Virus record (IMG/VR): IMGVR_UViG_3300021964_000504
Location: 1-24,723 of that record
Reading direction: 5' to 3' (one strand)
Source of the DNA: a virus
DNA length: 24,723 nucleotides
Below the pieces are notes generated by a model. That model was not told the origin of the DNA, ran no database searches, and was given only the letters and a program-made list of their open reading frames with translations. Numbering within the stretch: position 1 is the first letter of the stretch; each line of letters opens with the position of its first letter. The position numbers and the translations under genes were made by a program. Positions 3,433-23,251 of the stretch are shown here, piece after piece.

Positions 3433-6400
3433 TTATCCTAACATTAGTACTCTTTCTACAGCAATATCTTGTGCATCGTTTAAACTAATACCAGATGCTG
3501 CACCAGCAACACCTGTCCACTGTGTTCCGTCCCAAACTTCAACACGACTATCAGCTGTATTAAAACGCATCATACCTGTTTCGGTATATGCAAGAGCCGG
3601 TCTGTTTGTTGCATCACCAACTGGTAAAACAAAACCATTTGTATTATCAATTTTAACAAAACCGTCTGTTGTATTTTCAAATATTGTTGCTGCATTTGCA
3701 ACTGTATTTAAAATAGTGTTGTCTTTAATAGAAAAGTTATCAATTACAACTGACCCAGTTCCGTTTGGTGATAATTCTAAATCTGTATCTGTAGTTATTG
3801 TACTTATCACATTGCCGTCTATTTGGATATCATCAATGACTATTTTATTTGCATTAAATCGTGCTGCTGTTAAGTCGGCAACTACTACGCCGCCAGTGTA
3901 AAACCTAATAGTATTATCATTTGCACCAGGAGTTAGTTCTGCTGTGATGTAAGTATCTTCGTCAAGGTCAATTGGTCCTCTATTTAATATAATCCAATTT
4001 GTTCCATTATAACCTTCAAAGGTATTATCGTCAGTGTTGTATCTGATCATACCTGTTTCTGGTGTGCCAGGTCTTTCTAATTCTGTTCCCTTAGGCAATA
4101 CAAAACTGTTTGTACTATCAATTTCTACTGTGCCGCTGCCTGGCTGTAGAATCATATCGTTTGTGGTTGAAACTATATTAGTATTGAAACTGAATTCATC
4201 AACGACTATCGATCCAGTGCCGTTAGCACGTAATTCTAAATCGCTGTTAGATAAAGTTGTTGTAACAAAGTTATCATCAATTAATATATCGCCTGTTGAA
4301 AAACTATTTGCTGTAATAGTACCCGAGCTGTTTAAGTCAGCAATTGTTGCTGTGCCACTTATAGTAATATCTTGTTCGAATGTTGCATTATTAGATGGTA
4401 TACGTATTATGCCTGTACCATTAGCACGTAATTCTAAATCTGAATTACTAAGTGTTGTGGTAATATAATTATCGTCAATTAAAATATCTTCTAGTTGTGT
4501 ACTGCCGTTAACTGTAAGAGTTTCTGTAATAGTAACATCGCCAGTAACGGAATAATTTCCAGTTTGGTTATAATTGCCTACGTGTGTAATTACTCCTGTA
4601 ATGTTTGTGTTAGCAAGGTTTGTTACACCGTTTACTGTTAAGTTATTATCTATCTGTACATTATTATTCGGAGCATAAATTGTACCAGTTCCATTTGCAC
4701 GAAGTAATAAATTACTATCAGTAAGTGTTGTAGTTATAAAATTATCATCAATTAATATATCGCCTGTTGAAAAACTATTTGCAGTAATAGTACCTGAGCT
4801 GTCTATATCTGCAAAATATCCTACACCATTTACAGTTAAGTTATTATCAATTTCAACATTGTTTGAAGGAACATAAACTCGGCCAGTTCCGTTTGCTCTT
4901 AGTTCTAGATCTGAGTTGCTAAGGGTTGTAGTAATATAATTATCGTTAATTAAAATATCTTCAAACTGTGTTTCGCTGTTTATGTTTACTGTTCCGCTTA
5001 CAGTCATATTTCCTGTAAGTGTAATATCACCAGTCTGAACTGTATTTCCAGTGTGTGTAAATGTGCCGTTAATTGTAGTATTTGATAACGTAGTTACGCC
5101 GTTTACTGTTAAGTTATTATCTATCTGTACGTTATTAGTAGGAACATAAACTGTGCCGGTGCCATTGGCTCTTAGTTCTAAATCTGCATTAGAAGCAGTT
5201 GTAGTAATATAGTTGTCATTAATCTTTATATCGTCTATGTCTACCTGTCCAGCAAATAATTCTTTCCAAGTTTTTGATGTGCTACCTAAATTATAAGTTG
5301 AAGTTTCATTTGGGACTATGTCTGAAACAACTTCTGCAACAAGATTTAAATCGTCGGTGTTTTCGTCACCTATTGTGATATTACCGCCTACAGTAACATT
5401 GCCTGTTACGTCAACATTACCTGTTACACTTACATCGTCTTGTAAATTAATTTCTCCACTTGCTGCTGTTACATTCAAGTCACCGCTGGTGGTTTCAATT
5501 GTGTTGTCGTGTATGCTAATATTGCCAGTGTCAACTGTAGTGCCGTCTATAAATGTTGTGTTGCCACCATCAGTAAATGTTAAGCCTGATGTACTCTGTA
5601 CCTGGAAGTTAGCACTTGAAAAAGTAATTGTGCCCGTTTGCTGGTCTACATAAAACAAATCGCCAACACGGAAGTCGCCTTGATGGTCAACTGATGTATA
5701 ACGTATTTTTGCACCGTTAAGTTCTACAACTTCGTTTTCTTGTACAACTGCTGTGGGTTCGTTATCTTCAAATTCTTCTGTGCCTATGTATGCAAGGTTG
5801 TGTCCAATAGCATACATCAATACACCAGGGCCGTCACCGTAAAGTCCAAATTTACCGTAAACTGATGCAGATGCAATTGAACGTATCTCTGCACCAAAGT
5901 CTGTATAGTCAGCTAGTGTAATGCCTGTTGCTGTTGCGCCACCGCTAAATCTAATATCTTGTGCTAGTACGACATCATCTTCAAATGTAGTGCTTGCATT
6001 GTCACCATCGAAACGTGCCATTAACACAGTTTGTGATGTTACGGGCAACGGTAAGTTAGTAGGAGTAAATCCTGCTGTGTAAACTGCTGTGCCTTTTATA
6101 ACTCTAACATCATCTATGTTACCGTCTAGTGCTCCACCAGCATCGTGTTCAGCACCAATATATACTGGCTTAGTGTTGCCGTAGTCGTTGCTGTCTGTGT
6201 ATGTGCTACCAACTTGTGTACCGTCTACAAAAAGTTTTGTGTCTGTTCCTGAACGTGTTAGTGCAATGTGATGCCAAGTAGTTGCACTTAATGCTGTAGT
6301 ACCTGTAATTACTGTGCTGTTACCTACGTTAACTTTTGCATCAGCACCGTCTGCATAAATCCAAACTGCTGTGTCTGTATCTACGCCTGCACGAAAATCT

Positions 6401-8592
6401 GTAAATGTTTGTACACCACTAGTTGCATCCAAGTATATCCAACCTTCAACTGTAAAGTCATCTGTGCCAAATCCAAAGTCTGCTTGTGAAGTAATTGATG
6501 CATAGTCGCCTGTACCATCTAACAATAAACTAGCAGTACCCATTTTCTTAATACTGGTGCTAAGTTGTGCATCACCGTTAGCAGCAATGGTTTTGCCACC
6601 GCGTTCTGATGCCGTTTCAAAGCCTACTACTTTACCGTCTATATAAAACTTGCCATCGGCATCTTTGTCTGCAATAGTTCCAGATGCTAATAGTGTGACA
6701 CCGTCAGTGTCATAGTAGGAAACTGTTTCGCTTGCTGCAAAAGTTCCGCTTAGGCCATTAACTCTAAGTGCTGTTTGGCCTGCTCCTTTTAATCCATCGT
6801 TACTGTCAAATGCGTTGAAACTCTTGTTAGCAAAATATGTAAATGAATTTAACCATTCAATTCTAGCACCATTAGTTGCTGTTATAGCATCAACACCTGG
6901 ACATATAAATGTTGCAGAGTGGAACAACATACTTGCTTCTTTTGACGCTGCTGTAGCATAAGCACCGTCTATGTAAGCACCTTTACCTGCATCGCCTGCA
7001 TTGTATCCTCTTGGATCACTAGCATCGGATGTTGAACCAAAAGTAAGAACTGTTATGTTTCTAATATACGGAGAACGTGTTGTAACTTCAAAGTCTGTGG
7101 CAAAACGGAAAGCATATCCATTGTCTGGAAATACTCTTGTTCCGCCGTTACAACTAAATGTTAAATCTTTTAAAAATAAATTTGCACCTACATATGTATC
7201 ATGTGGTACGTCTGTTGTAATTGTAAGCTCGCCTGTTGTGTGGTCATACGTAGCACCAGTAACATTTGCTATTGTGCTGTCATCAGAATCAATAGTTCCG
7301 CCGCTTACGTAAGCATGGGCAAACGGAGATGTTCCTACATTTACTTTTATAGTTGAAGTGTCTGGGATATTTGTAACTGCAAAAAAGTTACCGCCACTGT
7401 AAAAATCTCTAACAGTTAAATCTTCTACAGTACTTTGACCGTTTAACAAAAAGGCATCGTTATATCTTGTAGCAGTTGTAGGCTTGATATTTACTGCTCT
7501 TATGCCATAACCTTTAAGTGCTACGCCTACTGGAATTGTTAACGGAAATTGTTCAACATATACACCCGGAGAGTCCAGTACAGTGTCGCCGTCGGTTGCT
7601 GTTGCTAGTGCAGCCTTAATACTGCTTTTTGGGTCTTGAGGGTGTGTTCCTGAATTTAAGTCATTGCCATTTTCTGCAACATATAATGTATTCCCTGGAC
7701 GTAAAGATAAATCAACACCGTCAACTTCTAACGCACCAGTTTCAATTTCTCCTGCAACAAAGTTGTTTACCCAAATGTTTTGCCAGCGTTTTGTATCTGT
7801 ACCTAAAGTGTATGTGTTGTCTTGATCAGGAACAATATTACTAGCAATTTCGCCGTTTAAAATTATATTGTCTGTGTCTTGATCACCAATAGTAATATTA
7901 CCGTCGGCAGTAATTGTTCCGGTTGCGTGTAAATTACCATATACATTTGTGTTGGCTTGTATTTCTACTGTGCCTGTGCCGTTAGGACGTAGTTCTAAAT
8001 TACTGTTTGTATCTGTGGTTGAAATGACATTTTGTTCTATTCTTATATTTTCAAATTGAGCAGTTCTGCCAACTGACAAATCTGTAGATGCTGTAACGTT
8101 TCCAGTTACATTAATATTTCCATTACTAACAATATCTTGTGTAGTAGTTATTCCGTTGACTTGTAAATCTTGCGTGATTTCTACATTATTTGTAGGAATA
8201 TAAATTATGCCTGAACCGTTTGCTCGTAGTTCTAAATCTGCATTTGAACTATTGGTTGTAATAATATTATCATTAATGTTTATACTGTCAATCTGTACTT
8301 CAGTATTATATACAATTTTATCAGGTGTTGCAAGATTTAAAACAGATTGAGAAGTTTCTATAGTGTTTCCACTTATAGATATATTTGCTATATTTGCAAG
8401 GGTAGTTACTTCTAAGTTAGTTGTACGAGTTGTACCGTTTACATCTAGATCGTACTGAGGACTGTTAGTGTTTACACCAATGCGGCTGTCTGTTACATTT
8501 AGATATAGTAAGTCTGTCTCAAAAGCCAAATCGACGCCTTGGCGCTCGAGATTTGCCTTTAAGAGCGGACCACTGATTCGACCAAGTGCCAT
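3433..8592 (-). CDS. Giant fiber-like structural protein with beta-helix, LamG-type lectin domain and tandem repeats (1719 residues)
   Basis: The start ATG is preceded by GAGGAGAAGAG, a strong ribosome binding site. The N-terminus (GRISGPLLKANLERQG) is shared with the 1342-residue gene upstream and is probably the attachment end. Residues about 300-590 form a beta-helix-like block (LYVAENGNDLNSG, RSPYIRNITV), interrupted near 404-490 by an extra beta domain. Residues about 670-865 are a concanavalin/LamG-type domain (FTVEGWIYLD, TTWHHIALTRSGTDTKLFVD, GNIDDVRVIKG). Eight copies of an ITTT-SNSDLELRANGTG-type motif follow and precede these blocks, and two LPxG-RP-GMxRYN motifs lie near the C-terminus, which ends VLMLG. 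The domain order suggests a long adhesive fiber or decoration filament; receptor binding through the lectin domain is inference. Confidence 0.9.
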   Translation of the reverse strand: MALGRISGPLLKANLERQGVDLAFETDLLYLNVTDSRIGVNTNSPQYDLDVNGTTRTTNLEVTTLANIANISISGNTIETSQSVLNLATPDKIVYNTEVQIDSININDNIITTNSSNADLELRANGSGIIYIPTNNVEITQDLQVNGITTTQDIVSNGNINVTGNVTASTDLSVGRTAQFENIRIEQNVISTTDTNSNLELRPNGTGTVEIQANTNVYGNLHATGTITADGNITIGDQDTDNIILNGEIASNIVPDQDNTYTLGTDTKRWQNIWVNNFVAGEIETGALEVDGVDLSLRPGNTLYVAENGNDLNSGTHPQDPKSSIKAALATATDGDTVLDSPGVYVEQFPLTIPVGVALKGYGIRAVNIKPTTATRYNDAFLLNGQSTVEDLTVRDFYSGGNFFAVTNIPDTSTIKVNVGTSPFAHAYVSGGTIDSDDSTIANVTGATYDHTTGELTITTDVPHDTYVGANLFLKDLTFSCNGGTRVFPDNGYAFRFATDFEVTTRSPYIRNITVLTFGSTSDASDPRGYNAGDAGKGAYIDGAYATAASKEASMLFHSATFICPGVDAITATNGARIEWLNSFTYFANKSFNAFDSNDGLKGAGQTALRVNGLSGTFAASETVSYYDTDGVTLLASGTIADKDADGKFYIDGKVVGFETASERGGKTIAANGDAQLSTSIKKMGTASLLLDGTGDYASITSQADFGFGTDDFTVEGWIYLDATSGVQTFTDFRAGVDTDTAVWIYADGADAKVNVGNSTVITGTTALSATTWHHIALTRSGTDTKLFVDGTQVGSTYTDSNDYGNTKPVYIGAEHDAGGALDGNIDDVRVIKGTAVYTAGFTPTNLPLPVTSQTVLMARFDGDNASTTFEDDVVLAQDIRFSGGATATGITLADYTDFGAEIRSIASASVYGKFGLYGDGPGVLMYAIGHNLAYIGTEEFEDNEPTAVVQENEVVELNGAKIRYTSVDHQGDFRVGDLFYVDQQTGTITFSSANFQVQSTSGLTFTDGGNTTFIDGTTVDTGNISIHDNTIETTSGDLNVTAASGEINLQDDVSVTGNVDVTGNVTVGGNITIGDENTDDLNLVAEVVSDIVPNETSTYNLGSTSKTWKELFAGQVDIDDIKINDNYITTTASNADLELRANGTGTVYVPTNNVQIDNNLTVNGVTTLSNTTINGTFTHTGNTVQTGDITLTGNMTVSGTVNINSETQFEDILINDNYITTTLSNSDLELRANGTGRVYVPSNNVEIDNNLTVNGVGYFADIDSSGTITANSFSTGDILIDDNFITTTLTDSNLLLRANGTGTIYAPNNNVQIDNNLTVNGVTNLANTNITGVITHVGNYNQTGNYSVTGDVTITETLTVNGSTQLEDILIDDNYITTTLSNSDLELRANGTGIIRIPSNNATFEQDITISGTATIADLNSSGTITANSFSTGDILIDDNFVTTTLSNSDLELRANGTGSIVVDEFSFNTNIVSTTNDMILQPGSGTVEIDSTNSFVLPKGTELERPGTPETGMIRYNTDDNTFEGYNGTNWIILNRGPIDLDEDTYITAELTPGANDNTIRFYTGGVVVADLTAARFNANKIVIDDIQIDGNVISTITTDTDLELSPNGTGSVVIDNFSIKDNTILNTVANAATIFENTTDGFVKIDNTNGFVLPVGDATNRPALAYTETGMMRFNTADSRVEVWDGTQWTGVAGAASGISLNDAQDIAVERVLMLG
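4271..5212 (-). repeat. 471-base tandem duplication inside the giant fiber gene
   Basis: Two adjacent copies of a 157-codon unit lie end to end. Bases 4271-4331 and 4742-4802 match over 61 bases with two differences, and 4628-4659 and 5099-5130 match over 32 bases without difference; both pairs are offset by exactly 471. Each unit carries two copies of the DLELRANGTG motif and two short beta segments of the DNNLTVNG kind. The outer boundaries are approximate because the older copies diverge. Confidence 0.85.
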
Positions 8593-8710: not shown

Positions 8711-8732
8711 AAGAAAAGGGTTGAGTTACCCT
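8711..8732 (-). terminator. Probable intrinsic terminator after the 1342-residue fiber gene
   Basis: On the minus strand AGGGT-AACTCA-ACCCT forms a 5-bp stem with a 6-base loop, followed directly by TTTCTTT. The stem overlaps the TAA stop of the 1342-residue gene, and the next late promoter begins only eight bases further on. The stem is short, so readthrough is likely. Confidence 0.45.
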
Positions 8733-11700
8733 AATATAAGAGACCATTCATCTACAATTTCGCCCATAAGTTCTGCACTGACTGTTTCGCCCACTGGGCC
8801 AGTTGATTCAATCCACTCTGTGCCTGTGTAAACTTCTGCTATACTTTCGTCGGTATTGTATCTAAATTCGCCAGTCTCTGGGCCTGATCTTCTACTAGCA
8901 GTGTCACCTGCTGTAATTGCAACGGCGCCCGTGCCTGCAATTTTGACGTAGCCAAATCCGGATGACTGTAAAAGTAAGGCACCTGCAATAGTATTTGTAA
9001 TTTTATTATCTACAAGATTAGTACTGTCTATAATAACAGAACCTGTGCCATTTCTTTGTAAATCTATGTCGCTATTTGAAACCGTTGTGCTAATAACATT
9101 AGCATCAATAGTAATGTCATCTACCTGCAATGCTAATAAATTTACACTATCAGTTATAGACGCAGTTTGTGCATTGTTATTGTAAAAATATAATGTGTTG
9201 TCTGTATTGCCTGCTGTTATTTTTGTTCTGTAGTTATCGCTGAATATTCCGCTAAATGCAGTGTTTGCTGTAGAGTATCCTTCAAACAAATTAAACGAAG
9301 TGTTATATCTTAAACTACCTGATAATGTTGTACGATCACCAGTTGTGCCCACTGGTAAAATTAAACTGCCGGTTGTATTGATTTTTGTTTTGTTAGATGC
9401 ACTATCTAATACAATATCAGCAGTATCAGTTGAAAGTATATTATCAATAAATTTACTGTCTGCAAAAAATGTTTTACCAGTGCCGTCGGCACGAAGTTCT
9501 AAATTAGAATTAGAAACAGTAGTAGTAATATAATTGTCATTTATTTCTATATTGTTTAACACAACTAATTCGTTTAAATCAAGACTTGTGTCTACTATAA
9601 CATTATTTGCAGATACGGTTCCTTGGACACTAATGTTATTAGGAATATCAACATTTTCTTTGAATATTACATTACCAGTTCCGCTTGCACGTAATTCTAA
9701 ATCTGCATTTGAAACTGTAGTTGTTACAACATTTCCTAATACAGATATCGATTCAAAAAATCCATCTCTACTATTAATATTACTAACTGTGCCGTTGCCA
9801 GTAATATTTAAATTTCCTGTCTGATTAACTGCACCTATTACTGTGTTTGTTCCGGTAATATTTGTGCTTGTAAATGTAGTAAGTCCGACGACTGTTAAAT
9901 CATTGTCAATAACAGTATTGTTAGAGTCAATTAATAAAATGCCGTTTCCATTAGCTGTCAATTCTAAGTTTGAATTAGAAACTGTAGTTGTTATAAAGTT
10001 GTCGTCAATTTGAATATTATTTCTTACAACCAAATCATTTATATCTAAACTTGTATCTACGTCGATGTTACCAGCAAAGAACGTTCCGTTAACAGTTAAA
10101 TCATTTTCTACTTCTACATCTTTATCTAGCGATACTACTCCGGTTCCTGCTGCCTTAAGTTCTAAGTCTGCATTAGATACAGTAGTAGTAATGTAGTTGT
10201 CATTAATTTGCACATCTTCAAATTCTGTTGCAGAATTAATTACGGTTTTTCCTGTAATAGATACATTGCCTGTAACGTCTATATTGCCTGTAGTTGTTCT
10301 TACACCAGTGTGTGTTAGCTCCCCGCTTAGAGACGTTGTACGCAAGTCTGTGACACCATTAATAGTAGTATTGTTGTCAAAGACTGCATTGTCAGAAACA
10401 TTTATATTTCCGGTACCATTAGCAAGTAACTCTAAGTTTGCATTAGATTGTGTGGTAGTGATAACATTATCGCTTATGGATATGTCATCTATAGTAAGTT
10501 CACTTAAAAATATATTTTTCCACTGCTTTGATATAGTGCCTAAATTATAAGTGTTTGTTATTGAAGGAATAATATTACTTGTGATTTCTGCTTCAAAGTC
10601 AACTGTGTCTCCGGTTGCATTACCAAGAGTAAAATTAGCACCCGACATTGTAAAGTTGCCTGTCATAGACAGGTTGCTTTGCATATTAACATCATTAGTA
10701 AAATTAATTGTGCCTGATGCCGCTGCAATATTACCATCGCCAATTAATGCGCTGATAGTATTATCTTGTATTCTCCAGTTTCCTGTTTCAATTTTTTCTG
10801 CATTGATAAAAGTTTCATCTCCGCCTGTGTTTACAGTTATACTAGAAATTCCTGTAAGAGCTACATCACTGTCGCTCAAACTGGTTGTTCCTTTATCAAA
10901 GTCTACAACAAAAGCATCGCCAACTCTAAAGTTTCCGCCGGCGTCTTGGCTAGTATAATATATTTTACCGGAGTTTAGTTCAACAGTTTCGTTAGCTTCT
11001 ATAACAAGTGTTGCATCATTTGAAACGTTTTTGCCTGCACCTATGTAAGCAAAGTTATGATTAATAAGGTACATTAGTGTTTCGTCGCCGTCGGCTTCTG
11101 CACCTATATTTCCGTATACACTTGCTGATCCTATAGAGCGCAATTCTGCACCTTTGTTTATGGTGCTTCCGTCTTGGTTTACTCTACCTACTGCATCATT
11201 AAATGCATACAGTCCTCTGTTTGCAAAATATGAAAAACAGTTTAACCACTCTACTCTTACACCGCCTGTCATCGACAGTGCATCAACACCGGGTGTTATA
11301 AATGTACAACTGTGAAATAGCATTGCAGCGTCAGCACTTGCACTATTCACATCTGTGCCGTCTACTAATGCTCCTTTACCTGCGTCACCGCTTGCAAACC
11401 CTCTTGGATCGGTTGCACTAGTTGCAGAGCCTTGTGTAATAACAGTAATGTTTCTAATATATGGAGAACGTGTTGTTGTAATTGCGTTGCTGGCAAATCT
11501 AAACGCATAACCTTTATCGTTTATGCTATCATAGTAAAAATCTTTTATGGTTAGGTCTTCTACAGTAGTTTCGCCGGTCATTAAAAATACATCTTCGCTT
11601 TGCGTAGAAGTGGTTGGCCTAATAATAGTGTTTCTTAAATCAAAACCTTTGACTGTAGTATTTGAAGGCACTGTTAATGGTAGTTCTTCTTGATAGTCAC

Positions 11701-12754
11701 CTGCCATTACATAGATTACTGTTGGTCCGCCGCTACTAGAATCAGCAACACTTAGAGCGTGTTTAATAGTTGCAAACGGTCCTTGAGGATGGTCTCCTCT
11801 GTTAGCATCTGATCCGTTAACTGATACATAAAATATATTACCTACGGGTGTTCCTATGTCTACTCCGCCAATTTGAACTGCGGCTGTGTTGATATCTAAT
11901 CCGTTTAATAAAACTGACTTTACTTCAGTCCATTGCTTACTGGGCGATCCTAAATTATAGGTTCCTGATTGGTCTGGAATAATATTACTAGCTATTTCGC
12001 CATTTAATATTATGTCGTCTGTGTTTTCATCACCTAATGTGATGTCTCCATCAAATGTTACATCTCCGGTTGCGTGTAGTCCTCCGGTGATATTAGTATC
12101 TGCATAAATGTCTAACTCGCCTGTGCCGCCCGGGGATAAATCAATATTACTATTAGAATGTGTGGTGCTGATATTGTTTTGATCTATACGAACATTTTCT
12201 AACTGCACAGCTCTGCTAATTGCAACATCTTGACTAATTGTTAGGTTAGTTGTAGATACAGTGCCTGTTGCATTTATGGCAGCAGTAGTTGTAGTGCCAT
12301 CAATTGTTAGATTATTTTCAATAAGCGTGTTGGCTAATATTATATTGCCAGTGCCATTTGCAGTTAGTTGTAAATTTGTGTTAGCAGTGTATGTTGATAG
12401 AACGTTATCGTTAATATCTATATCAGCAGTTTGTAAACGCGGTATATTAACATAATTTCCAGCACTTATAATAATATCGCCTGTCGGTACTTCTATTCTG
12501 CTGTTTGTAAATTCAAAATTTCCAATATTAGCAATAGTAGTTGCTATTAAATTTGTAGTTTGTGCAGTACCTAATATTGATAAATCTCTACTAGGAGTCT
12601 CAGTGTTAATGCCAATTCTATTATTATTAACATCGAAATAAAGTAAAGTAGATGCAGGATCAAACCTATCGTTACTAAACGCTAGATCTATACCGTTTCT
12701 TTCTAAGTTGGCTTCTAAGAGCGGCCCTGATATTCTACCTAATTGTCTTGACAT
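8726..12754 (-). CDS. Giant fiber-like structural protein with beta-helix and repeats (1342 residues)
   Basis: The ATG follows TAGGAATTACAGT, with AGGA as ribosome binding site. The N-terminus (QLGRISGPLLEANLERNG) and most blocks match the 1719-residue gene, so the two are paralogues in tandem. Residues about 305-515 hold the beta-helix-like block (FYVSVNGSDANRG, RSPYIRNITV). Eight copies of a motif like YITTTVSNSNLEL-ADGTG are spread along the chain, and one pair of larger units (starting DTSLDINDL and DTSLDLNEL) repeats at 155 residues. Two RP-GxxRYN-type motifs lie near the C-terminus, which ends SLILG. Unlike the paralogue it lacks the LamG domain and the extra insertion in the beta-helix. 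It is probably a fiber or virion decoration; location is not provable from sequence. Confidence 0.9.
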   Translation of the reverse strand: MSRQLGRISGPLLEANLERNGIDLAFSNDRFDPASTLLYFDVNNNRIGINTETPSRDLSILGTAQTTNLIATTIANIGNFEFTNSRIEVPTGDIIISAGNYVNIPRLQTADIDINDNVLSTYTANTNLQLTANGTGNIILANTLIENNLTIDGTTTTAAINATGTVSTTNLTISQDVAISRAVQLENVRIDQNNISTTHSNSNIDLSPGGTGELDIYADTNITGGLHATGDVTFDGDITLGDENTDDIILNGEIASNIIPDQSGTYNLGSPSKQWTEVKSVLLNGLDINTAAVQIGGVDIGTPVGNIFYVSVNGSDANRGDHPQGPFATIKHALSVADSSSGGPTVIYVMAGDYQEELPLTVPSNTTVKGFDLRNTIIRPTTSTQSEDVFLMTGETTVEDLTIKDFYYDSINDKGYAFRFASNAITTTRSPYIRNITVITQGSATSATDPRGFASGDAGKGALVDGTDVNSASADAAMLFHSCTFITPGVDALSMTGGVRVEWLNCFSYFANRGLYAFNDAVGRVNQDGSTINKGAELRSIGSASVYGNIGAEADGDETLMYLINHNFAYIGAGKNVSNDATLVIEANETVELNSGKIYYTSQDAGGNFRVGDAFVVDFDKGTTSLSDSDVALTGISSITVNTGGDETFINAEKIETGNWRIQDNTISALIGDGNIAAASGTINFTNDVNMQSNLSMTGNFTMSGANFTLGNATGDTVDFEAEITSNIIPSITNTYNLGTISKQWKNIFLSELTIDDISISDNVITTTQSNANLELLANGTGNINVSDNAVFDNNTTINGVTDLRTTSLSGELTHTGVRTTTGNIDVTGNVSITGKTVINSATEFEDVQINDNYITTTVSNADLELKAAGTGVVSLDKDVEVENDLTVNGTFFAGNIDVDTSLDINDLVVRNNIQIDDNFITTTVSNSNLELTANGNGILLIDSNNTVIDNDLTVVGLTTFTSTNITGTNTVIGAVNQTGNLNITGNGTVSNINSRDGFFESISVLGNVVTTTVSNADLELRASGTGNVIFKENVDIPNNISVQGTVSANNVIVDTSLDLNELVVLNNIEINDNYITTTVSNSNLELRADGTGKTFFADSKFIDNILSTDTADIVLDSASNKTKINTTGSLILPVGTTGDRTTLSGSLRYNTSFNLFEGYSTANTAFSGIFSDNYRTKITAGNTDNTLYFYNNNAQTASITDSVNLLALQVDDITIDANVISTTVSNSDIDLQRNGTGSVIIDSTNLVDNKITNTIAGALLLQSSGFGYVKIAGTGAVAITAGDTASRRSGPETGEFRYNTDESIAEVYTGTEWIESTGPVGETVSAELMGEIVDEWSLILG

Positions 12755-15182: not shown

Positions 15183-16298
15183 TTAATTTAAAAACTTCAA
15201 TTTAGAATGCAGATTTTCACACAGGTGCCTGTACACGAATATTAATTGGTTCTTGTTATGTAAGAGCCGTTGTTTATTTTCTAACATATAATCTTGCCAG
15301 TAACTTACTGGTTTTGTGCAAAATTTTTCAATTTGATCAACAAACATTTTTTCTCTTTTTATAACATCTAATTCTGTATCGTAAGAAAGATCAAAAATAT
15401 CGTCAAACATATCAAAATGTTGATTCTGTAAACTTTTAACTTGAAATGGTGTCCCAAAGACTAGTGGTAATTGAAAGTAGAAAAAAGGTTTTGCTGTTTT
15501 TTCTGTAAAATGTGCTCTGTCAGACAATGTTTGTGTTCTATACTTCTCTTGATACATCCATCCAACGTGTGTTTCCTGTACTACATTCAAACAAACTTTA
15601 TCTAATCCTCCTGTTTCAACTTCCCATTGATCAGAATCTGGATGTCCTAGTGTTACAGGAAATCTATCATGCAGGTCTTGCGGTATAATATTAAGCCACG
15701 GTTTGCTCCACTGCTCATTTTCTTTGTCAAAATATTTTTTACAGTCCTCGTGCCAGCCGCACGACACATAACCTTTTGTATCTAGTTGTCGAGATAGCAA
15801 ATCAGCAGTAATCCTAACTCGAGAATATCTTGCTCTTCTTGCTAAACTACTAAACAACGTATTTTTTTCGGCAACTGATTCTTCAAATTGTTTGTACTTT
15901 CTTGTGTTTAAGCAATTATAAAAGAACGGACTTTGTGCAAAATGATAAGGTTTACTGCCTTTTTGATATAATTCAAATCCGCCGTCTATAACAAGAATAT
16001 TATTCCATCCTTCTTCATTTAAATAGTCACAAACACTATTCCATACAAGCGAATGCATGACTTCAAATTCGTAAACTAGTATTATGTTTTTGTTTGTTAA
16101 ATTTGTGTTGTCTTTTTTAAATTTTTTGTTTGCTCTTTGCGTCATAGACACAAGCATATCTTCTTGGATGTCAAGATAATTAATTACAAAAATATCGTCA
16201 GGTAATAGAGTACTTAATTTGTCCCAGTCAAGTTCAGTATTCATTTTATCTATTGACTGCGATTCGTGGTAAAGTTGCATATGGTATTTATAGTGCAA
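15183..16298 (-). CDS. Putative glycosyltransferase-like protein (exostosin/GT10-like viral family)
   Basis: The longest frame has 371 residues, but a late promoter lies inside its first codons, so translation probably starts at Met7 (16280) or Met19 (16244). No clear Shine-Dalgarno sequence precedes any of the three. Residues about 149-182 (FSSLARRARYSR, GYVSCGW) and 238-307 (NVVQETH, HFTEKTAKPF, a G-x-P turn at 282-284, FDMFDDIFDLSYD) fit a pattern I know from virus-encoded proteins; the E...FTEK...P...G order resembles the donor-binding region of GT-B fold glycosyltransferases such as GT10 and exostosin. The gene stands alone between the gp23 terminator and the next late promoter, like an inserted accessory gene. 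Enzyme activity is inference. Confidence 0.7.
   Translation of the reverse strand: MHYKYHMQLYHESQSIDKMNTELDWDKLSTLLPDDIFVINYLDIQEDMLVSMTQRANKKFKKDNTNLTNKNIILVYEFEVMHSLVWNSVCDYLNEEGWNNILVIDGGFELYQKGSKPYHFAQSPFFYNCLNTRKYKQFEESVAEKNTLFSSLARRARYSRVRITADLLSRQLDTKGYVSCGWHEDCKKYFDKENEQWSKPWLNIIPQDLHDRFPVTLGHPDSDQWEVETGGLDKVCLNVVQETHVGWMYQEKYRTQTLSDRAHFTEKTAKPFFYFQLPLVFGTPFQVKSLQNQHFDMFDDIFDLSYDTELDVIKREKMFVDQIEKFCTKPVSYWQDYMLENKQRLLHNKNQLIFVYRHLCENLHSKLKFLN
16285..16292 (-). promoter_or_regulatory. T4-type late promoter (TATAAATA, perfect match)
   Basis: The minus strand reads CACTATAAATACCATATG. It is identical to the T4 late-promoter consensus and lies about 20 bases after the gp23 terminator. 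An ATG (Met7 of the 371-residue frame) begins four bases behind the box. Confidence 0.75.
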
Positions 16299-16360: not shown

Positions 16361-17527
16361 TTAGCTGAAGCTTACATTACCAGATGTAATTGCAACTTCA
16401 CCTAGGTAATCGCCTGCGTTACCTAAAGATGACGCTGTGTTAGACAGTTCAACATAACCATAACGTGTCATAAATGATACGACTGGTTCGAATGTTGCTG
16501 GGTCTAATACAACTCCACTGCTCATTAATGGAATATATGGGCAATAGAATGCTGCGGCATCTGACTCTGAAGAGCCTTTATAACCAACAAGTACTGGTGT
16601 GTTATCAGCTGCATAAGAATCAACATACACTTTCATGGCGTTGTTTAATGTACCAACCATTTTAGTGTTTGTAGGTGCTTCAAAAGCGCCTTCAGTTGTT
16701 CTAGCAAATGCTGAAGTTGTAGCACTTTGTAAAATTGTTAACGCAAATGGGCTAACAACTGCAAAGTTACCAGCACCACGTCTTGTACGCTGAGCAATCA
16801 AGTTAGCAACACGGTTGATTTGAACAGCTAAAGCAGCGTGTTCGTCACCAACAAATGTAGCAGTACCTGATACAGCAGCTTGGTCATATGTTTCATATGT
16901 ACCAGCTAAAGAACGTAGGCTTCCTAATACTTCTTGATCAATCTCAGCAGTAATTTCTTGTGCTAAAGCAGCCATAATCTCTGCTTCAATATCAATACCA
17001 TGCTGTGACTGAGCGTCCTGTGCAGATTCAAAAGTCCAGCGAGCTGATAGCTTTCTGGTTTTTGCTTCTACAGTTTGCTTTAAGATTTGAATGCTTAATT
17101 TCTTACCTGCTTGTCCTTCTAGTGCTGCTGTAGCTGCTGCTTTAGCAGTTGCGCTTGAAGAATTTGCTGAGTAACCTTGAGCAATTTCAAATGGGCTTAA
17201 AGCTTCTGTTCCAGCTGCAAACTCACCTGCGTCCGCATAGCGTACACGTAATGTGTGAATTTGACCGACTGGTCCAGTCATAGGTTGTACACCAACTAGT
17301 TCATTTGCAATCACTGTTGGCATTACACGTCTGATAACTGGTAAAATAACTCTGTTAAGAGTTGCGACATTACCGGCGGAAGTGGCACCTGCTGTAGCAC
17401 TTTCTGACAAATACTGCTTAGTATTTTCCAGTGTAGTAGCCATTACAGACTTCTTGTTGCCTTGTAGGCCTTCAAGTAGTGCGTCTTTGGTCTCCTGCCA
17501 GCGACTTTCTAGTAGTTCTGACATCAT
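16361..17527 (-). CDS. gp23: Major capsid protein gp23
   Basis: This encodes 388 residues of the T4-type gp23 family, which builds the hexamers of the head shell. GVQPMTGP (79-86) and the following HTLRVRY strand match the conserved core of the family. T4 gp23 is about 520 residues, so this is a compact form, as in distant marine T4-like phages. LSE-S at 40-43 fits the (I/L)-x-E cleavage rule of the gp21 protease, predicting removal of a 42-residue propeptide that contains the helix LLESRWQETKDALLEG. Two ATGs are adjacent; AAGGAG is three bases before the first and six before the second, so Met2 (17524) is the likelier start. The gene is directly downstream of the scaffold gene and followed by a strong terminator. 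Confidence 0.95.
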   Translation of the reverse strand: MMSELLESRWQETKDALLEGLQGNKKSVMATTLENTKQYLSESATAGATSAGNVATLNRVILPVIRRVMPTVIANELVGVQPMTGPVGQIHTLRVRYADAGEFAAGTEALSPFEIAQGYSANSSSATAKAAATAALEGQAGKKLSIQILKQTVEAKTRKLSARWTFESAQDAQSQHGIDIEAEIMAALAQEITAEIDQEVLGSLRSLAGTYETYDQAAVSGTATFVGDEHAALAVQINRVANLIAQRTRRGAGNFAVVSPFALTILQSATTSAFARTTEGAFEAPTNTKMVGTLNNAMKVYVDSYAADNTPVLVGYKGSSESDAAAFYCPYIPLMSSGVVLDPATFEPVVSFMTRYGYVELSNTASSLGNAGDYLGEVAITSGNVSFS

Positions 17528-17534
17528 TATCTCC

Positions 17535-18632
17535 TTAATTTAATCCAGCGAGACGACGAATGTCAATAACATTTCCGTCCTCTGCTTGTCTACTAACGTT
17601 AGATTCTTCTTCTCTGTTGCCTGTGATTTCTTTGCCTTCTACTAATTGTGCCTTTTTCTTGGCTGGAGTACCGCCGTCTATAACGGATGGTAAGTACTTG
17701 TCAAACTGTGTTCTAAGTTTTGTAGTTTGGACAGTTTCCAGTAAGTCTGTCATAATTTCGCGCTGGTCATTGCTTAAAGGCGCAACCAACTCGTTCATTA
17801 TGTCTTTTCTTTGTGCATTTTCATTGATCTGTGTGATTTCTTTCTCTTTAGATTCAACTAACTTAACTGCTTTTTCAGCAACAGTTTTTGCTTCTGCAAG
17901 TTTCTTTTCTTTTAAGTCAAGAACTTTCATAAGTTTTGCTGTTTCTGATTTTTCATTTAAGTAAGAGTTAGAATACTCAGATGCAAATGCTTCGAATAAT
18001 TTACGACCAAAGTCGTTTTCTCGTGCAGCATCAATGTCTTCTTTAAGCTGATTAATTTCTTTTGCAAGTCCTTTTTCAACTGCTTCTGACACTAATGTAG
18101 CACTTCTTTTGATAAAGTCTGTTTTGACTTTAGCAAAGTGCGACTTAGCTTCACGTACTAAACGTACTTTTGTTTCAGCTAGGTCTTTTTTATCTTCATA
18201 AAATTCTGCAATCTCATTAGATAGTGCTTCAACAACAAAATCTTCAAGTGTAGCAAATTTCTCTGCCATTGCTTTTTGATCTTGGTGTAATTCAGAAACT
18301 TCAGAAGTTAATTGTTCCATAACAAAACCTTTTAGTAGTTCAGCATTTTCACGCTGTGCTACTGCATATTTTGCTTTGGCTTCTGCTAACTGTTTGCGGT
18401 CTTCTGCAAACTCTGAAATTTCTTCTTGTAGACGCTCTTCTAGCATGGTGTCGACAGCTTCAATCATGTTCTGCTTATCGTGTTCATACTTTTGTGCAAA
18501 TTCTTCGCGAAGTTCAGCAGTTACCTGCTGCTTGTTCTCTTTGATTTTGCTATTCCAAGCTTCTTCAATTTCGTTGCGCACTTCTTCTGAAACAACATCG
18601 TTTTCAAATAAAGTTTTTAGTGCATCCAACAT
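17535..18632 (-). CDS. gp22: Prohead scaffold protein gp22
   Basis: This encodes 365 residues, strongly charged and almost wholly alpha-helical, the core scaffold around which gp23 assembles and which gp21 later degrades. The ATG follows GAGGAGAAAAAT. Several degenerate repeats of the type E-L-x-x-EI-x-EF-x-EDKK-x-LAE lie between residues about 60 and 180 and would form coiled coil. FGRKLFEAFASEY and the C-terminal block TTKLRTQFDKYLPSVI are conserved-looking features in gp22 of marine T4-like phages. Position between protease and capsid genes is the T4 order. LVEGKEITG and similar sites could be gp21 targets. Confidence 0.93.
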   Translation of the reverse strand: MLDALKTLFENDVVSEEVRNEIEEAWNSKIKENKQQVTAELREEFAQKYEHDKQNMIEAVDTMLEERLQEEISEFAEDRKQLAEAKAKYAVAQRENAELLKGFVMEQLTSEVSELHQDQKAMAEKFATLEDFVVEALSNEIAEFYEDKKDLAETKVRLVREAKSHFAKVKTDFIKRSATLVSEAVEKGLAKEINQLKEDIDAARENDFGRKLFEAFASEYSNSYLNEKSETAKLMKVLDLKEKKLAEAKTVAEKAVKLVESKEKEITQINENAQRKDIMNELVAPLSNDQREIMTDLLETVQTTKLRTQFDKYLPSVIDGGTPAKKKAQLVEGKEITGNREEESNVSRQAEDGNVIDIRRLAGLN

Positions 18633-18648: not shown

Positions 18649-19272
18649 TTATCGGAGTTTACTGATTATATTAATCAGCGATTCCTTAAGATACTTTTGT
18701 GCCTTTTCGTCGTGCTTTGTTGCCTGTGCTAGTTCGTACGCCGACATCCCGCCACGAGCATTCATTAAATGTTCGTAGATAGGCGTTGGATACGCCCCAG
18801 GAGCACTCGGCTGTGCGACGACATCCACGGTGATAATTTCAAATCCTGAAACTTCACCGCTTCCGTCTTCTGATACGTTACCACTTCCTCTTGAAGAAAC
18901 GCCTAGTTTTACACCTGCTTCAAGCATTGTTTTTACTAGTTGTCCCATAGGAGTTGGTAAAATTTTCATCTTTCCATAACCGTTTGGTCCATCCATCCAC
19001 ATTTCTGTAATCATGTGTGATACACGGTCCAAGTTAATGTTTAGGCCTTCTGGATGATCAACCTCGCCGAGAACGCTGTAACCTCCGCTAACTTGATCGT
19101 TGAGAGTTTTGACAGCCCTGCCTATTTCATTAACAGGATATACTCGCTGATTAGCGTTACGGACGCCGCCTTGAATACAAATACCTTTCATATAAAGATC
19201 TTTGCCTTCATTTTGGCTTTCCACGACCATTTGTGCTTGGTCAAATGTCAAATGCTCTCGTAGATTCATCAT
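18649..19272 (-). CDS. gp21: Prohead core protease gp21
   Basis: This encodes 207 residues of the T4 gp21 prohead protease family, a serine protease with a herpesvirus-assemblin-like fold that cleaves core and capsid proteins after head assembly. The GEVDHP motif supplies the catalytic His73, and GVSSRG (124-129) supplies the active-site serine. The later D-V-V-A-QPSAPGA segment also fits the family. Length is close to T4 gp21. There are two adjacent ATGs; GAGG lies about ten bases before the first. The gene stands between the acidic core gene and the scaffold gene as in T4. Confidence 0.95.
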   Translation of the reverse strand: MMNLREHLTFDQAQMVVESQNEGKDLYMKGICIQGGVRNANQRVYPVNEIGRAVKTLNDQVSGGYSVLGEVDHPEGLNINLDRVSHMITEMWMDGPNGYGKMKILPTPMGQLVKTMLEAGVKLGVSSRGSGNVSEDGSGEVSGFEIITVDVVAQPSAPGAYPTPIYEHLMNARGGMSAYELAQATKHDEKAQKYLKESLINIISKLR

Positions 19273-19290: not shown

Positions 19291-20316
19291 TTATGAGCCA
19301 AGTGTGGACTTCTTGTTCACACCGCCGTCTTCGCCTGCGCCTTTTTTCTCAGCGCCATGGCCTTTTGGTTCACCCTTTAAAGATTTGCCAGCTTTTCCAC
19401 CTGGTACATTAACGTTTCCTGCATTTTCTTCGCTTTCTGAAGGATTTGCTAATCCGCCTGTTGTACCTTTAGTGTCAGCTTCGCCGCCTTGAACTAAGTT
19501 AGACGATGTTCCGCCCATATCGTTCTTACCAGCTACTGTTGACTTGGTGTTTGTGCCTGACTCTTCTGACTTATTTGCACTTGATGCTTCTAAACCGCCT
19601 TTACCAGCAATTTTTTCTACATACTCGCGCATTTGTTCTGCTTCTGATTTTTCAGCAACTTCTTCGTCGTCTGAATCTTCAGCAACAGCGTCTTCGTCAG
19701 TTTCTTCTTCAGCTTCGCCAAAGTTAAAGGCTTCTTCTTCGCCTTCTTCGTCTTCGCCTTCCTCATCGCCCATGTCCATGTCAGCAGCGTCGTCATCGTC
19801 GCCGTCTTCATCAGACATCATTTTTTCAAATTCAGCTTTAAGGTCGTCCAAAGCATCTTCTAGGTCAACAACTCTGTCTTCTATTTCTTCGTCGTCGCCT
19901 TTATCTTCTTCGCCTTCGTCGTCCATAGCGTCTTCAATGTCACCCATCATGTCATCTGCTGGGTCACCGCTCATGTCGTCGTCAGCTTCAACTTCAAATT
20001 CGTCTAAGTTAAAGTCTTCGTCTACTTCTTCGTCAGTAGCTTCGTCAACTTCTTCGTCTTGTGCTTTTGCTTCGTCTACTTCTTCGTCAGTAGCTTCGTC
20101 TACTTCTTCGTCAGTAGCTTCGTCAACTTCTTCCTCTGAAGCTTCATCAACTTCTTCTTCGGATTCCTCGTCAACTTCGATATCGTCTTCAAGTAGATTT
20201 TCATAAATCTCTCTTGATTTTTCTACAACGATGTCGTGGAATAATTCTTGTGCTCCGGCTTTGTCTTCATTGACTAGGCGCTCAAGCATTTCTTCAAACT
20301 TGTTTCGATCTGCCAT
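19291..20316 (-). CDS. Very acidic prohead core protein, gp67-like
   Basis: This encodes 341 residues, extremely rich in Asp and Glu. The ATG follows TATAGGAGACAAAAA. Residues 1-43 (LVNEDKAGAQELFHDIVVEK and on) are a predicted helix that resembles the N-terminus of T4 gp67, and the acidic tail is also gp67-like, although T4 gp67 has only about 80 residues. Residues about 52-105 contain seven copies of EEVDEATD or close variants, coded by 24-base repeats. The C-terminal third is Gly/Lys/Ser-rich (KAGKSLKGEPKGHGAEKKG) and basic. Gene order (portal, core, protease) supports a core role; the expanded size is unusual. Homology to gp67 is inferred from memory of the family. Confidence 0.8.
   Translation of the reverse strand: MADRNKFEEMLERLVNEDKAGAQELFHDIVVEKSREIYENLLEDDIEVDEESEEEVDEASEEEVDEATDEEVDEATDEEVDEAKAQDEEVDEATDEEVDEDFNLDEFEVEADDDMSGDPADDMMGDIEDAMDDEGEEDKGDDEEIEDRVVDLEDALDDLKAEFEKMMSDEDGDDDDAADMDMGDEEGEDEEGEEEAFNFGEAEEETDEDAVAEDSDDEEVAEKSEAEQMREYVEKIAGKGGLEASSANKSEESGTNTKSTVAGKNDMGGTSSNLVQGGEADTKGTTGGLANPSESEENAGNVNVPGGKAGKSLKGEPKGHGAEKKGAGEDGGVNKKSTLGS
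20018..20180 (-). repeat. 24-base tandem repeats coding EEVDEATD
   Basis: The plus strand shows repeated units of the form cttcgtcagtagcttcgtc with changes to cttcctctgaagcttcatc, giving seven copies of an 8-residue acidic unit. One KAQD interruption sits in the middle. Near-identical third positions in the central copies suggest recent expansion by slippage or unequal recombination. Confidence 0.8.
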
Positions 20317-20438: not shown

Positions 20439-21245
20439 TTAGAAGATTTTTTGGAAATCTTCGATTAGCATAGTACTAAAGTTGTCAAATTTATTTAGTT
20501 CTTCTGGACGATAATTATCTGGTGCTATAACTCTTACAAACTTAATATGCGGATTTTCTTTAATTACATTAGTAGTTTGACGCATCCAATTGCCAAAAAA
20601 TGTTGCGCCATCTGATGATTTTTTGTAATTAGGACTATCTGCAAATATATTATTAAATCGTTGGCCGTCTTTTAGGCCTTTATAATCAAATCCTAATATG
20701 TAAATTGTTTCGTACCTGTGCTGACTTGCTAACCACAACGCAGTAGGACCACTTGACCAACCTTTTGAAGGATTAAAAAAATTAAATTCTTTAAATCTAC
20801 TAATTGTTTTTTGTGGATTAGTCCATATGTTAGGATTTTTCTTGTGATATCCGGCTTTATGTAATTCTAAAACCATCTTTACATCTACAGCAACTAGATA
20901 ATCAGGGTCAAATGATCTATAAACAGCATTACAAGCATATACTTTACCGTGTTCTTTTAATGTGTTAGGATCAATAGGTTCTCTACTAGTTCCATTACCT
21001 AATACAAACGCAATACTGCCATCAGATATAGGTGTTACAACCGGCACAGGTTGTTGCTTAGGTTTATACTTTATAGAATCTTGTTCGGTTGTGGGAGCTG
21101 GTTGAGTTGGGGATTGTGTAGCAAGATCTTTTTGTCTTTGATCTATTTGTCTTTTTAACTTTGCTTCTTGCTTTTCTTGTCGGCGCCACTGCATTAATTT
21201 AGCGGCTTCCTGTTTGGTTAACCCTTTTTTGGATAATTTAGCCAC
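20439..21245 (-). CDS. Protein with coiled-coil N-terminus and glycosyltransferase-like (GT42/DUF115-like) C-terminal domain
   Basis: This encodes 268 residues. It begins with GTG, three bases after the stop of the upstream gene, suggesting coupled translation; GGGA lies eight bases upstream. Residues 1-45 are a Lys/Gln/Arg-rich helix, followed by a Pro/Gln-rich linker to about 75. Residues 78-190 carry LGNGTS (82-87), YACNAVYR (103-110), PDYLVAVD (114-121), a GWSSGPTALWLA block (162-173) and IYILGFD (181-187). This order resembles GT42 sialyltransferases and the DUF115/MptE-like Rossmann fold family. It has no counterpart between portal and protease genes in T4. A modification enzyme acting on virion or host glycans is possible, but activity is inference, and the helix could be a capsid-targeting tail. 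Confidence 0.7.
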   Translation of the reverse strand: MAKLSKKGLTKQEAAKLMQWRRQEKQEAKLKRQIDQRQKDLATQSPTQPAPTTEQDSIKYKPKQQPVPVVTPISDGSIAFVLGNGTSREPIDPNTLKEHGKVYACNAVYRSFDPDYLVAVDVKMVLELHKAGYHKKNPNIWTNPQKTISRFKEFNFFNPSKGWSSGPTALWLASQHRYETIYILGFDYKGLKDGQRFNNIFADSPNYKKSSDGATFFGNWMRQTTNVIKENPHIKFVRVIAPDNYRPEELNKFDNFSTMLIEDFQKIF

Positions 21246-21248
21246 ACG

Positions 21249-21494
21249 TTAGATTCCCGCTTCGGCGTTGGCAGCAACTCCATACATTTGTCTAACAAAA
21301 TCTAATTCATTTGCTTTTTCTTTTTTATGTAGTTCGCCTGCTTTACGTGCTTTGTTGATTTGTCGTAGAGTTAATTTTGTTTTGCGTGTGTCGTCCAAGT
21401 CTACAGGTGATAAGTCGTCACGCGGCTCGTAGCTGTTATCCTCTACAGGCTCAAATGTTTCTTTGTCAAAATAAAATAATTCACGCAATATCAT
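21249..21494 (-). CDS. Small conserved protein downstream of the portal gene
   Basis: This encodes 81 residues. Residues 34-50 (DDTRKTKLTLRQINKAR) form a basic segment that I recall as conserved in a small protein found after the portal gene in marine T4-like phages. The rest is charged and helical at the C-terminus. A perfect late promoter overlaps the portal stop codon and ends five bases before the ATG, and there is no Shine-Dalgarno sequence, so the transcript may be leaderless or translation may be coupled to the portal gene. Position equals that of T4 gp67/gp68; a prohead-core role is possible but not shown. Confidence 0.75.
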   Translation of the reverse strand: MILRELFYFDKETFEPVEDNSYEPRDDLSPVDLDDTRKTKLTLRQINKARKAGELHKKEKANELDFVRQMYGVAANAEAGI

Positions 21495-21499
21495 AATAC

Positions 21500-21507
21500 T
21501 ATTTATA
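21500..21507 (-). promoter_or_regulatory. T4-type late promoter (TATAAATA, perfect match)
   Basis: The minus strand reads ACGGTATAAATAGTATTATG. The box includes the TAA stop of the portal gene and is followed after five bases by the ATG of the 81-residue gene. Confidence 0.7.
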
Positions 21508-23251
21508 CCGTTTGGTCTGTTGCTGGAGGTGTTGCTCCTGGCTCTGCTCCTGTAGCAGTGTCTGGAGGTGTTCCTTCACCGCCTTCTATAGGTGCTTCGT
21601 CACCAGTTACTGCTTCGTCTTCAAGTCCGCCTAAGTCTCCTTCAATGCCTGCGCCACTTACTCCTGCGCCACGCATTTCTGCACTTTGATCGCCTGGAGG
21701 AGGTGTAAGATTTTCGTCGTTTTCTTCTCTCCATAAACGTTCATTTTCTGCTATTTCTTCTTGTGATAAACCTAAGTATCGCGCAAGTGCAAATCTATTT
21801 GACATATAAGGAATTGCTGCCATTTGTGTATATGTTGGTACACGAGCATTGTCCATTTCTGCTTGTCTATATGCAGCAAAGTTTTGTGGTGGTTCCATAG
21901 TAAGATCAAACATACTTGTATCTATGTTTGCACCTTTTTCTAATAGATAACGTTTAAACTCTTGATTAAATTGTTCAACAACTAGATTTTGTAAACGTTC
22001 GCAATATGTATTAAATCTTAATTCTTGTATATATGCTGTTCCAACTCTGCCGTCGTTATACTGAGCGGCACTATCGTCTGCTCCAGTAGGTAGATAGGAT
22101 GAAGGGATACGGAGACCGCGTACTAGTTTGTTAGTGAAATAACGTAAGTCGTCAATTTCACCAAGGTTAGTTCCGCCTGGCAGTGTTTCAACTTTTGATC
22201 CGCGCCCTTCAGCAGTTTGCGGGAAGAAGTAGTCTTCGTTGATGCTCAACGGATTGTAGGAACTGTCTATGACGTTCGTGCCACCTCCTGTCGAACTTGG
22301 TATGCGTCTCTGATGTATCTCAGTTTTTACCCTTTCGACAAACTGCATTGCCAAGTGACTTGGCATATTACCAACGTCTACATAAAACACTCTACGTTCA
22401 GGTGCTCTCTGCACACGATAGATAATAATTGCATCTTCAAGCAATTCTTTCTGCTTGTAGACTTTGAATATTGTTTCTAATAGTGAATTACCAAATGGAT
22501 AATTGTTGTCTAAGCCTTCTGATAAACTTAAATGTATAACATGGTTAGCATCAACAGTAATTTCTCTGTCGCCTTGCTGGAATCTCGAACCGCCTACAGT
22601 TTGATTGGGATTTCCTGTCATGCCGCGAACACCGCCGGTCATGTATCCTTCTCCGCCGCCAGTAGTGTTACCGTTAGTTGAATATGGAGTTGTAGCAACC
22701 ATTTCTTCAAAGTTTAAATTAAAGTTTTTAACTACATATTGTTCTGGTTTTTTGCCTTCTGATTCGTTTACAATAATTTTAGTTACATTTGCAGGATCTA
22801 CATGGAACCATTTTCTTGTTTCTGGATCTCTTACAAAGAATGCATCACCGTACTTGAATGTGTTACGTAATATACGGAACATACGTGTTTCAAAATTTTG
22901 TAATTTACACCATTGTTGTAGATATTGTTGTAATACAGTTGCTTCTGAATTTGTTGCCTTTTGTTTGAAATTCATTTTAAAAGGCGTTTGATTCTGTTTG
23001 TTTTTTTGTGTGCAGAATTCAGCTAATATGTCAAGTGCAGCATTTACTTCTGAGTCCAAATCCATTGTGTTATAGTGGCCATATCGTTCAACACGATTTG
23101 GCGATCCTGTATAAACGTCTGGCAAAAAGGAACTGTAATTTGCTTTTGCAGGGCCAACACTGTTGCCGCCACTAGATCCGCCTAACGGTGAATAGTTGCC
23201 GCTTGGATTATCGCCTGTTGCTATTGGTGTAAAATGTCTTTTCCAACTCAT
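21503..23251 (-). CDS. gp20: Portal vertex protein gp20
   Basis: This encodes 582 residues of the T4 gp20 portal family, the twelve-subunit ring at the head vertex that nucleates the prohead and lets DNA pass. RAPERRVFYVDVGNMP (near residue 290) is the family hallmark, followed by a QFVERVKTEIHQRR helix, the FFPQTAEGRGSKVETLPGG block and the NKLVRGLRIPSSYL segment. It is somewhat longer than T4 gp20 (about 524 residues), with a Gly-rich stretch near residues 197-225 and a Pro/Gly/Glu-rich tail after about 520. The ATG follows TAGGAATTTAA nine bases after the upstream stop, so it is cotranscribed with the gene to its right. Confidence 0.95.
   Translation of the reverse strand: MSWKRHFTPIATGDNPSGNYSPLGGSSGGNSVGPAKANYSSFLPDVYTGSPNRVERYGHYNTMDLDSEVNAALDILAEFCTQKNKQNQTPFKMNFKQKATNSEATVLQQYLQQWCKLQNFETRMFRILRNTFKYGDAFFVRDPETRKWFHVDPANVTKIIVNESEGKKPEQYVVKNFNLNFEEMVATTPYSTNGNTTGGGEGYMTGGVRGMTGNPNQTVGGSRFQQGDREITVDANHVIHLSLSEGLDNNYPFGNSLLETIFKVYKQKELLEDAIIIYRVQRAPERRVFYVDVGNMPSHLAMQFVERVKTEIHQRRIPSSTGGGTNVIDSSYNPLSINEDYFFPQTAEGRGSKVETLPGGTNLGEIDDLRYFTNKLVRGLRIPSSYLPTGADDSAAQYNDGRVGTAYIQELRFNTYCERLQNLVVEQFNQEFKRYLLEKGANIDTSMFDLTMEPPQNFAAYRQAEMDNARVPTYTQMAAIPYMSNRFALARYLGLSQEEIAENERLWREENDENLTPPPGDQSAEMRGAGVSGAGIEGDLGGLEDEAVTGDEAPIEGGEGTPPDTATGAEPGATPPATDQTV

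Follow-up and report, generated by a model that had tools for sequence, protein, structure and literature searches.

Sialyltransferases of family GT42, typified by CstI and CstII (Pfam CST-I, PF06002), are among the described systems closest to the glycosyltransferase-like protein (GT) considered here. They share the GNG...S, CN and SG...GxD motifs in matching order and gave the best PDB sequence matches of our profile, but the present family scores 16 bits against a cut-off of 25, has no invariant histidine, is shorter and sits in another gene context. MptE-like proteins (DUF115, PF01973) resemble it in that 21 of 63 members match their profile weakly, and the archaeal structure 8sd5 (Foldseek probability 0.99) and viral MptE-like models (probability 1.0) were fold hits, whereas the protein itself has no PF01973 match and reaches a TM-score of only 0.35 to 8sd5. 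A third group, GT29, consists of membrane-anchored Golgi enzymes (PMC1508147) and includes the plant sialyltransferase-like enzyme RCKT1, for which transfer of Kdo with CMP-Kdo as donor is reported (PMC11288761), a precedent for the use of that donor; its members ST8SiaIII and ST6GalNAc2 were fold hits, but with TM-scores of 0.36-0.43 and no sequence match. The nearest annotated relatives are phrog_30607, phrog_4603 and I899_gp007 of Pelagibacter phage HTVC008M (30.7% identity over 70%). Unlike the copies described below, the homologues of HTVC008M and Mosig have replication genes and 2OG-oxygenase or hypothetical genes as neighbours, not head genes.

Sugar transfer by phage enzymes has precedents. 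Moraphages have four core glycosyltransferase groups (PMC12619734), and the cluster F1 mycobacteriophages Che8 and Rita are described, as cited in PMC11256854, as encoding glycosyltransferases and bearing glycans on capsid proteins. Virion glycosylation of this kind provides a precedent for our reading, but the phages are different ones, and their relative Maravista has its glycosyltransferase genes towards the 3' terminus, outside the head assembly cluster (PMC11256854). A further comparison is with the T4 internal proteins that carry a capsid-targeting sequence, which likewise have a short N-terminal extension and a place near core genes, but whose [L/I]-x-E site is absent from the tail of the present protein; this tail is also neither universal in its family nor shared with other proteins.

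The gene was examined within the window, by which we mean the whole stretch of 24,723 nucleotides analysed. An earlier note had placed a 268-residue gene between those for portal and protease, and it was indeed found there on the minus strand, the plus strand over the same interval being closed by many stops. Reading along the minus strand, the order is portal, 81-aa gene, GT, acidic 341-aa gene, protease, scaffold and major capsid protein, with the following features:

21503-23251, minus strand: portal protein (T4 gp20-like; Portal_T4, E=3.8e-111)
21249-21494, minus strand: 81-aa head gene directly upstream of GT (phrog_13986, unknown function)
20439-21245, minus strand: GT, 268-aa sialyltransferase/MptE-like protein (GTG start at 21245, stop codon 20439-20441)
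21117-21215, minus strand: predicted N-terminal basic helix of GT, residues 11-43, lineage-specific
21015-21116, minus strand: Pro-rich linker of GT, residues 44-77 (low pLDDT at 45-59; length and prolines not conserved)
20442-21020, minus strand: enzyme domain of GT, residues 76-268 (domain model, invariant residues in 153 orthologues, dN/dS)
19291-20316, minus strand: acidic 341-aa protein downstream of GT, probable prohead core protein by position and composition
18649-19272, minus strand: prohead protease (T4 gp21-like; phrog_207, E=5e-58)
17535-18632, minus strand: scaffold-like protein rich in [L/I]-x-E sites (phrog_10922)
16361-17527, minus strand: major capsid protein (T4 gp23-like; phrog_138, E=2.2e-100)

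Besides GT, two further small head genes thus lie between portal and protease. GT starts 3 bp after the 81-aa gene, and the acidic gene follows 122 bp after GT; by positional analogy these two neighbours presumably occupy the places of T4 genes 67 and 68. A homologue of the 81-aa gene is present in cultured jumbo phages too, while a family search with the acidic protein gave no match. The scaffold-like protein contains 19 [L/I]-x-E sites (7.8 expected). All five motifs listed in the earlier note (LGNGTS, YACNAVYR, PDYLVAVD, GWSSGP and IYILGFD) were found in the order given there, and they are not a product of chance: none of their core residues varies among 153 non-redundant orthologues. As a candidate late promoter, TATAAATA had two occurrences in the window where 3 were expected, and the hairpin 3' of GT scored no better as a terminator than shuffled sequences.

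Other genes of the window were also noted. The acidic protein (19291-20316, minus strand) contains a long acidic repeat, EEVDEATD, whose length differs among relatives. Directly after the capsid gene lies a 371-aa gene (15183-16298, minus strand) with no Pfam or PHROGs match; only a few close relatives were seen (loci L006/L164, L009 and L010), so that its presence beside the capsid gene is variable, and its C-terminal part, SYDTELDVIKREK, gives the impression of a motif found in phage enzymes that are uncharacterised. Two very long fibre-like proteins, 1719 aa (3433-8592) and 1342 aa (8726-12754), both on the minus strand, have repeated motifs such as DNYITTTxSNxDLELRANGTG and many segments in common.

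The phages bearing GT form a large family that is uncultured, mostly marine and T4-type. Among loci found via GT, each of the 134 complete main-lineage contexts held the 81-aa gene, GT and the acidic gene, although these are not all independent (105 non-redundant proteins); the remaining loci reached a contig edge or came from Pelagibacter phages. With the protease as bait, loci spanning portal to protease were picked without selecting on GT, and GT was present in 52 of these 55. In a quick tree of the protease, the three without it fall within a GT-bearing group, which points to loss of the gene. The place of GT in the head operon is nearly fixed. GT was not seen between portal and protease in the cultured jumbo relatives 121Q, Ettore, Atu_ph07, Phosso and Vibrio 2.275.O. 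As a separate observation, the portal-to-protease interval is about 3.2 kb rather than 2.0 kb in loci L182, L200 and L201, so that an extra gene is probably inserted among their head genes.

Adjacent kdsA and kdsB genes were observed on three GT-bearing contigs chosen without regard to kds (G001, 200 kb; G002, 101 kb; G003, 98 kb), and two contigs found through kdsA (G015, G016) carry GT as well. In all five contigs that reach far enough, the pair lies 73-88 kb downstream of GT on the same strand. KdsA scores above the NCBIfam equivalogue cut-offs, and for the kdsB product KdsB is the best match but stays under its cut-offs. Every GT contig without the pair stops less than 73 kb downstream of GT, and such contigs are therefore neither counter-examples nor support; the window, too, is too short to contain it. 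Phages without GT can have the pair too: contig G014 carries kdsA-kdsB and a T4 portal but no GT of this type. A tighter linkage was found once: contig G029 (locus L329, 417-5887) encodes, in this order, a fibre-like protein, a distant GT homologue (E=1e-26), PTPS, KdsA, KdsB, a GT8-like enzyme, a 2OG-oxygenase and a PMM-like phosphatase; some 80 kdsA loci, taken with short flanks, held no second case of this kind. The GT8-like enzyme of L329 begins with a basic tail too (MAQQMSEKEERRLQKEKRRLEKQGN). On the 200 kb GT-bearing contig L242, metK (methionine adenosyltransferase) and a Vut_1 family gene (putative vitamin uptake transporter), at 6552-7643 and 7899-8558, stand beside kdsA-kdsB.

These genes bear on the choice of donor. 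Sialic acid was considered as a phage-made donor and set aside, because NeuB was not found on 13 contigs and a phage-encoded sialic acid pathway was thus not seen. The 151- and 249-aa genes that follow kdsB in the main lineage were not recognisable as sugar enzymes. Kdo as the donor is possible rather than probable; hosts with lipopolysaccharide produce CMP-Kdo themselves.

The explanation we favour, tentatively and short of calling it probable, is that GT is an active superfamily glycosyltransferase, probably made late, which takes an acidic ulosonic sugar, with Kdo the likeliest, from its CMP-activated form and transfers it to a virion protein. GT would be made late together with the portal and would act as a glycosyltransferase of the GT42/GT29/MptE-like group, a relationship borne out by profile matches and a catalytic role suggested by residue conservation. 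The donor may be CMP-Kdo, for which kdsA-kdsB is phage-encoded in the lineage. The acceptor would be a virion protein, with a head protein as the first candidate and, among these, the major capsid protein the one we would look to first. A virion protein as target comes close to an even chance. That the marine T4-type lineage makes CMP-Kdo and that the head-cluster GT decorates the capsid with it, giving a lipopolysaccharide-like coat, is a bolder proposal that we consider improbable as a whole. Against the reading of Kdo on the virion stand the weak PDB folds, the want of an invariant histidine, the kds pair without GT in G014 and the CMP-Kdo of the host; in addition, the linked kds cassette is one instance, and a position among head genes is no proof of a head target.

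The same genes could serve a different target. GT may be a late sugar enzyme acting on the host envelope, for example on the lipopolysaccharide inner core, where it would block superinfection or change a receptor, and it would stand among the head genes simply because late transcription suits it. Kdo sits in the lipopolysaccharide inner core, an enzyme of CMP-sugar type together with kds genes suits envelope sugars equally well, and the distant homologue of the Pelagibacter phages is located away from head genes. However, a near-fixed place between two small head genes across a divergent family is unexpected for a free-standing host-directed gene, and we consider action on the envelope rather unlikely, if the most serious competitor of a virion target.

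What reaction GT may catalyze was approached through its family and fold. As a single sequence it matched Pfam CST-I at E=0.015 with 15.2-16.4 bits, under the gathering cut-off of 25, and searches of PDB and NCBIfam returned nothing. When 63 divergent members were sampled for profile searches, 29 of them matched CST-I (best 7.5e-5) and 21 weakly matched MptE-like PF01973 (best 2.1e-4), to which the window protein itself had no match up to E=1. The PHROG named alpha-2,3-sialyltransferase (phrog_4603) was matched by 60 of the 63 (best 2e-8), and phrog_30607, of unknown function, by all 63. Against PDB sequences the family profiles found bacterial sialyltransferases best (E=0.012), the donor-site motifs GNG...S and CN and the SG...G-D motif falling in order in alignments to 2p2v and 9c08.

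A domain-only model of residues 76-268 had a mean pLDDT of 94.4 and a pTM of 0.91. Foldseek matched this domain to archaeal MptE 8sd5 with probability 0.99, but with E=0.0037 and a TM-score of 0.35. Human ST8SiaIII was matched with probability 0.90 and TM 0.42 by the domain and with probability 0.99 and TM 0.36-0.38 by the full model; for ST6GalNAc2 the probability was 0.84-0.98, and viral MptE-like models matched the full-length model with probability 1.0. Overall, the PDB hits had E above 0.001 and TM-scores of 0.35-0.43 and stood amid many generic Rossmann hits, and CstI/CstII were absent among the PDB structure matches listed. The relation to the GT42 and DUF115 group proposed in the earlier note is thereby upheld by the profile matches to CST-I, MptE-like and phrog_4603 families and by weak fold matches, whereas scores stayed below the family cut-offs; we are highly confident that residues 76-268 belong to the sialyltransferase/MptE-like superfamily, and not to GT42 or PF01973 as such.

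Membership in this superfamily leaves room for an MptE-like enzyme of other chemistry, with pyrophosphoryl transfer to a pterin or another nucleotide-linked reaction in place of glycosyl transfer. The PF01973 matches of one third of the members (21/63) are in keeping with this, as are archaeal MptE being the most probable sensible PDB fold hit and a PTPS gene adjoining the distant homologue. The CST-I and sialyltransferase-family matches are equal or stronger, though, and no pterin gene turned up next to GT in the head clusters; we judge such chemistry to be quite improbable and glycosyl transfer reasonably likely.

Preceding the enzyme domain, GT carries the tail and linker that the earlier note described as a coiled coil joined by a Pro-rich segment and interpreted as a possible capsid-targeting element. 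The helix itself is predicted and N-terminal, and residues 11-40 (pLDDT about 90) are modelled as a single charged helix; the coiled coil is unsupported. Seven prolines are present in the linker of the window protein, but this feature is not conserved, and most relatives have much shorter linkers. The start of the tail, MAKIDKSxYTKxEWxxIxEQRRxEK, is conserved within one large group and predicted to be helical, while sister groups have GT without the tail at the identical locus. On a tree of 125 rows, presence of the tail changes 6 times, clustered far beyond chance (row L050 counts as tail-free only because its contig is truncated); the pattern fits, though the tree does not prove, one origin followed by several losses.

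The tail of the window protein contains no [L/I]-x-E site. Elsewhere the triplet occurs in 73 of 103 tails against 48 expected by shuffling, an excess that may perhaps reflect the shared motif alone, and a tail profile searched against all ORFs of the loci found the tail on the GT protein only. A T4-like capsid-targeting sequence was accordingly rejected as a general account of the tail: because tail-free orthologues hold the position, with apparent repeated loss, and the window tail lacks [L/I]-x-E, capsid targeting is unsupported as the reason for the gene's location. The tail is unnecessary for the association of GT with head genes; the basic tail is a lineage-specific accessory, which may serve as an adaptor that links GT to acidic proteins of the core or to acceptor proteins. 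A related idea is that the enzyme travels inside the head and enters the next host by ejection, the basic tail being its packaging signal. This idea could draw on that tail, on the place among core genes and on the triplet excess, but the tail is absent from orthologues in the same place and repeatedly lost, the triplet is missing from the window copy and no other protein of the loci shares the tail, and we regard packaging as very improbable.

Conservation was examined for the enzyme domain. About 36 residues of GT are invariant. Those invariant or nearly so among 153 non-redundant sequences include G83 N84 G85, R88, C105 N106, R110, D121, K123, E127, W163 S164 S165 G166 P167 T168, G185 F186 D187, N198 N199, N206 Y207, T215, G218 N219 W220, Q223 T224 and R238. 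They cover the positions at which sialyltransferases of solved structure have their GNG, CN and SG motifs in the alignments, and the loss of putative catalytic residues that the earlier note had named as refuting its proposal did not appear, the putative active-site residues being kept in all homologues (153 sequences). Histidine is the exception: no His is invariant among the 153 sequences, the best column being H176 (131/153). The catalytic base of GT42, which we take to be His188 of CstII, is hence missing or replaced in this family. Pairwise dN/dS was 0.08-0.09 for the domain and 0.27-0.35 for the tail (synonymous sites near saturation in the second pair). Given about 36 invariant residues and a dN/dS of about 0.09, sequence conservation indicates with good confidence that GT is an active enzyme, whose base may differ from that of GT42. 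That GT has lost catalysis and now serves as a structural protein of the prohead core would suit a place among core genes and the variable histidine, but is highly improbable, because few residues of the protein are better conserved than those aligning with the nucleotide-sugar pocket, the opposite of what would be expected, and three relatives do without GT.

Phage glycosyltransferases, kds genes and virion glycosylation are each known separately (PMC11256854, PMC12619734), and kdsA was found in named phages. Our literature search found no account of a sialyltransferase-like enzyme fixed in a T4-type head cluster with CMP-Kdo genes in the lineage. If the favoured reading is true, the head gene cluster would come with its own protein-modifying sugar enzyme, which would be conserved throughout a group of phages that is very common in the environment and would have a partner donor pathway encoded by the phage, and auxiliary sugar genes (kdsA, kdsB) and virion assembly, usually filed apart, would become linked.
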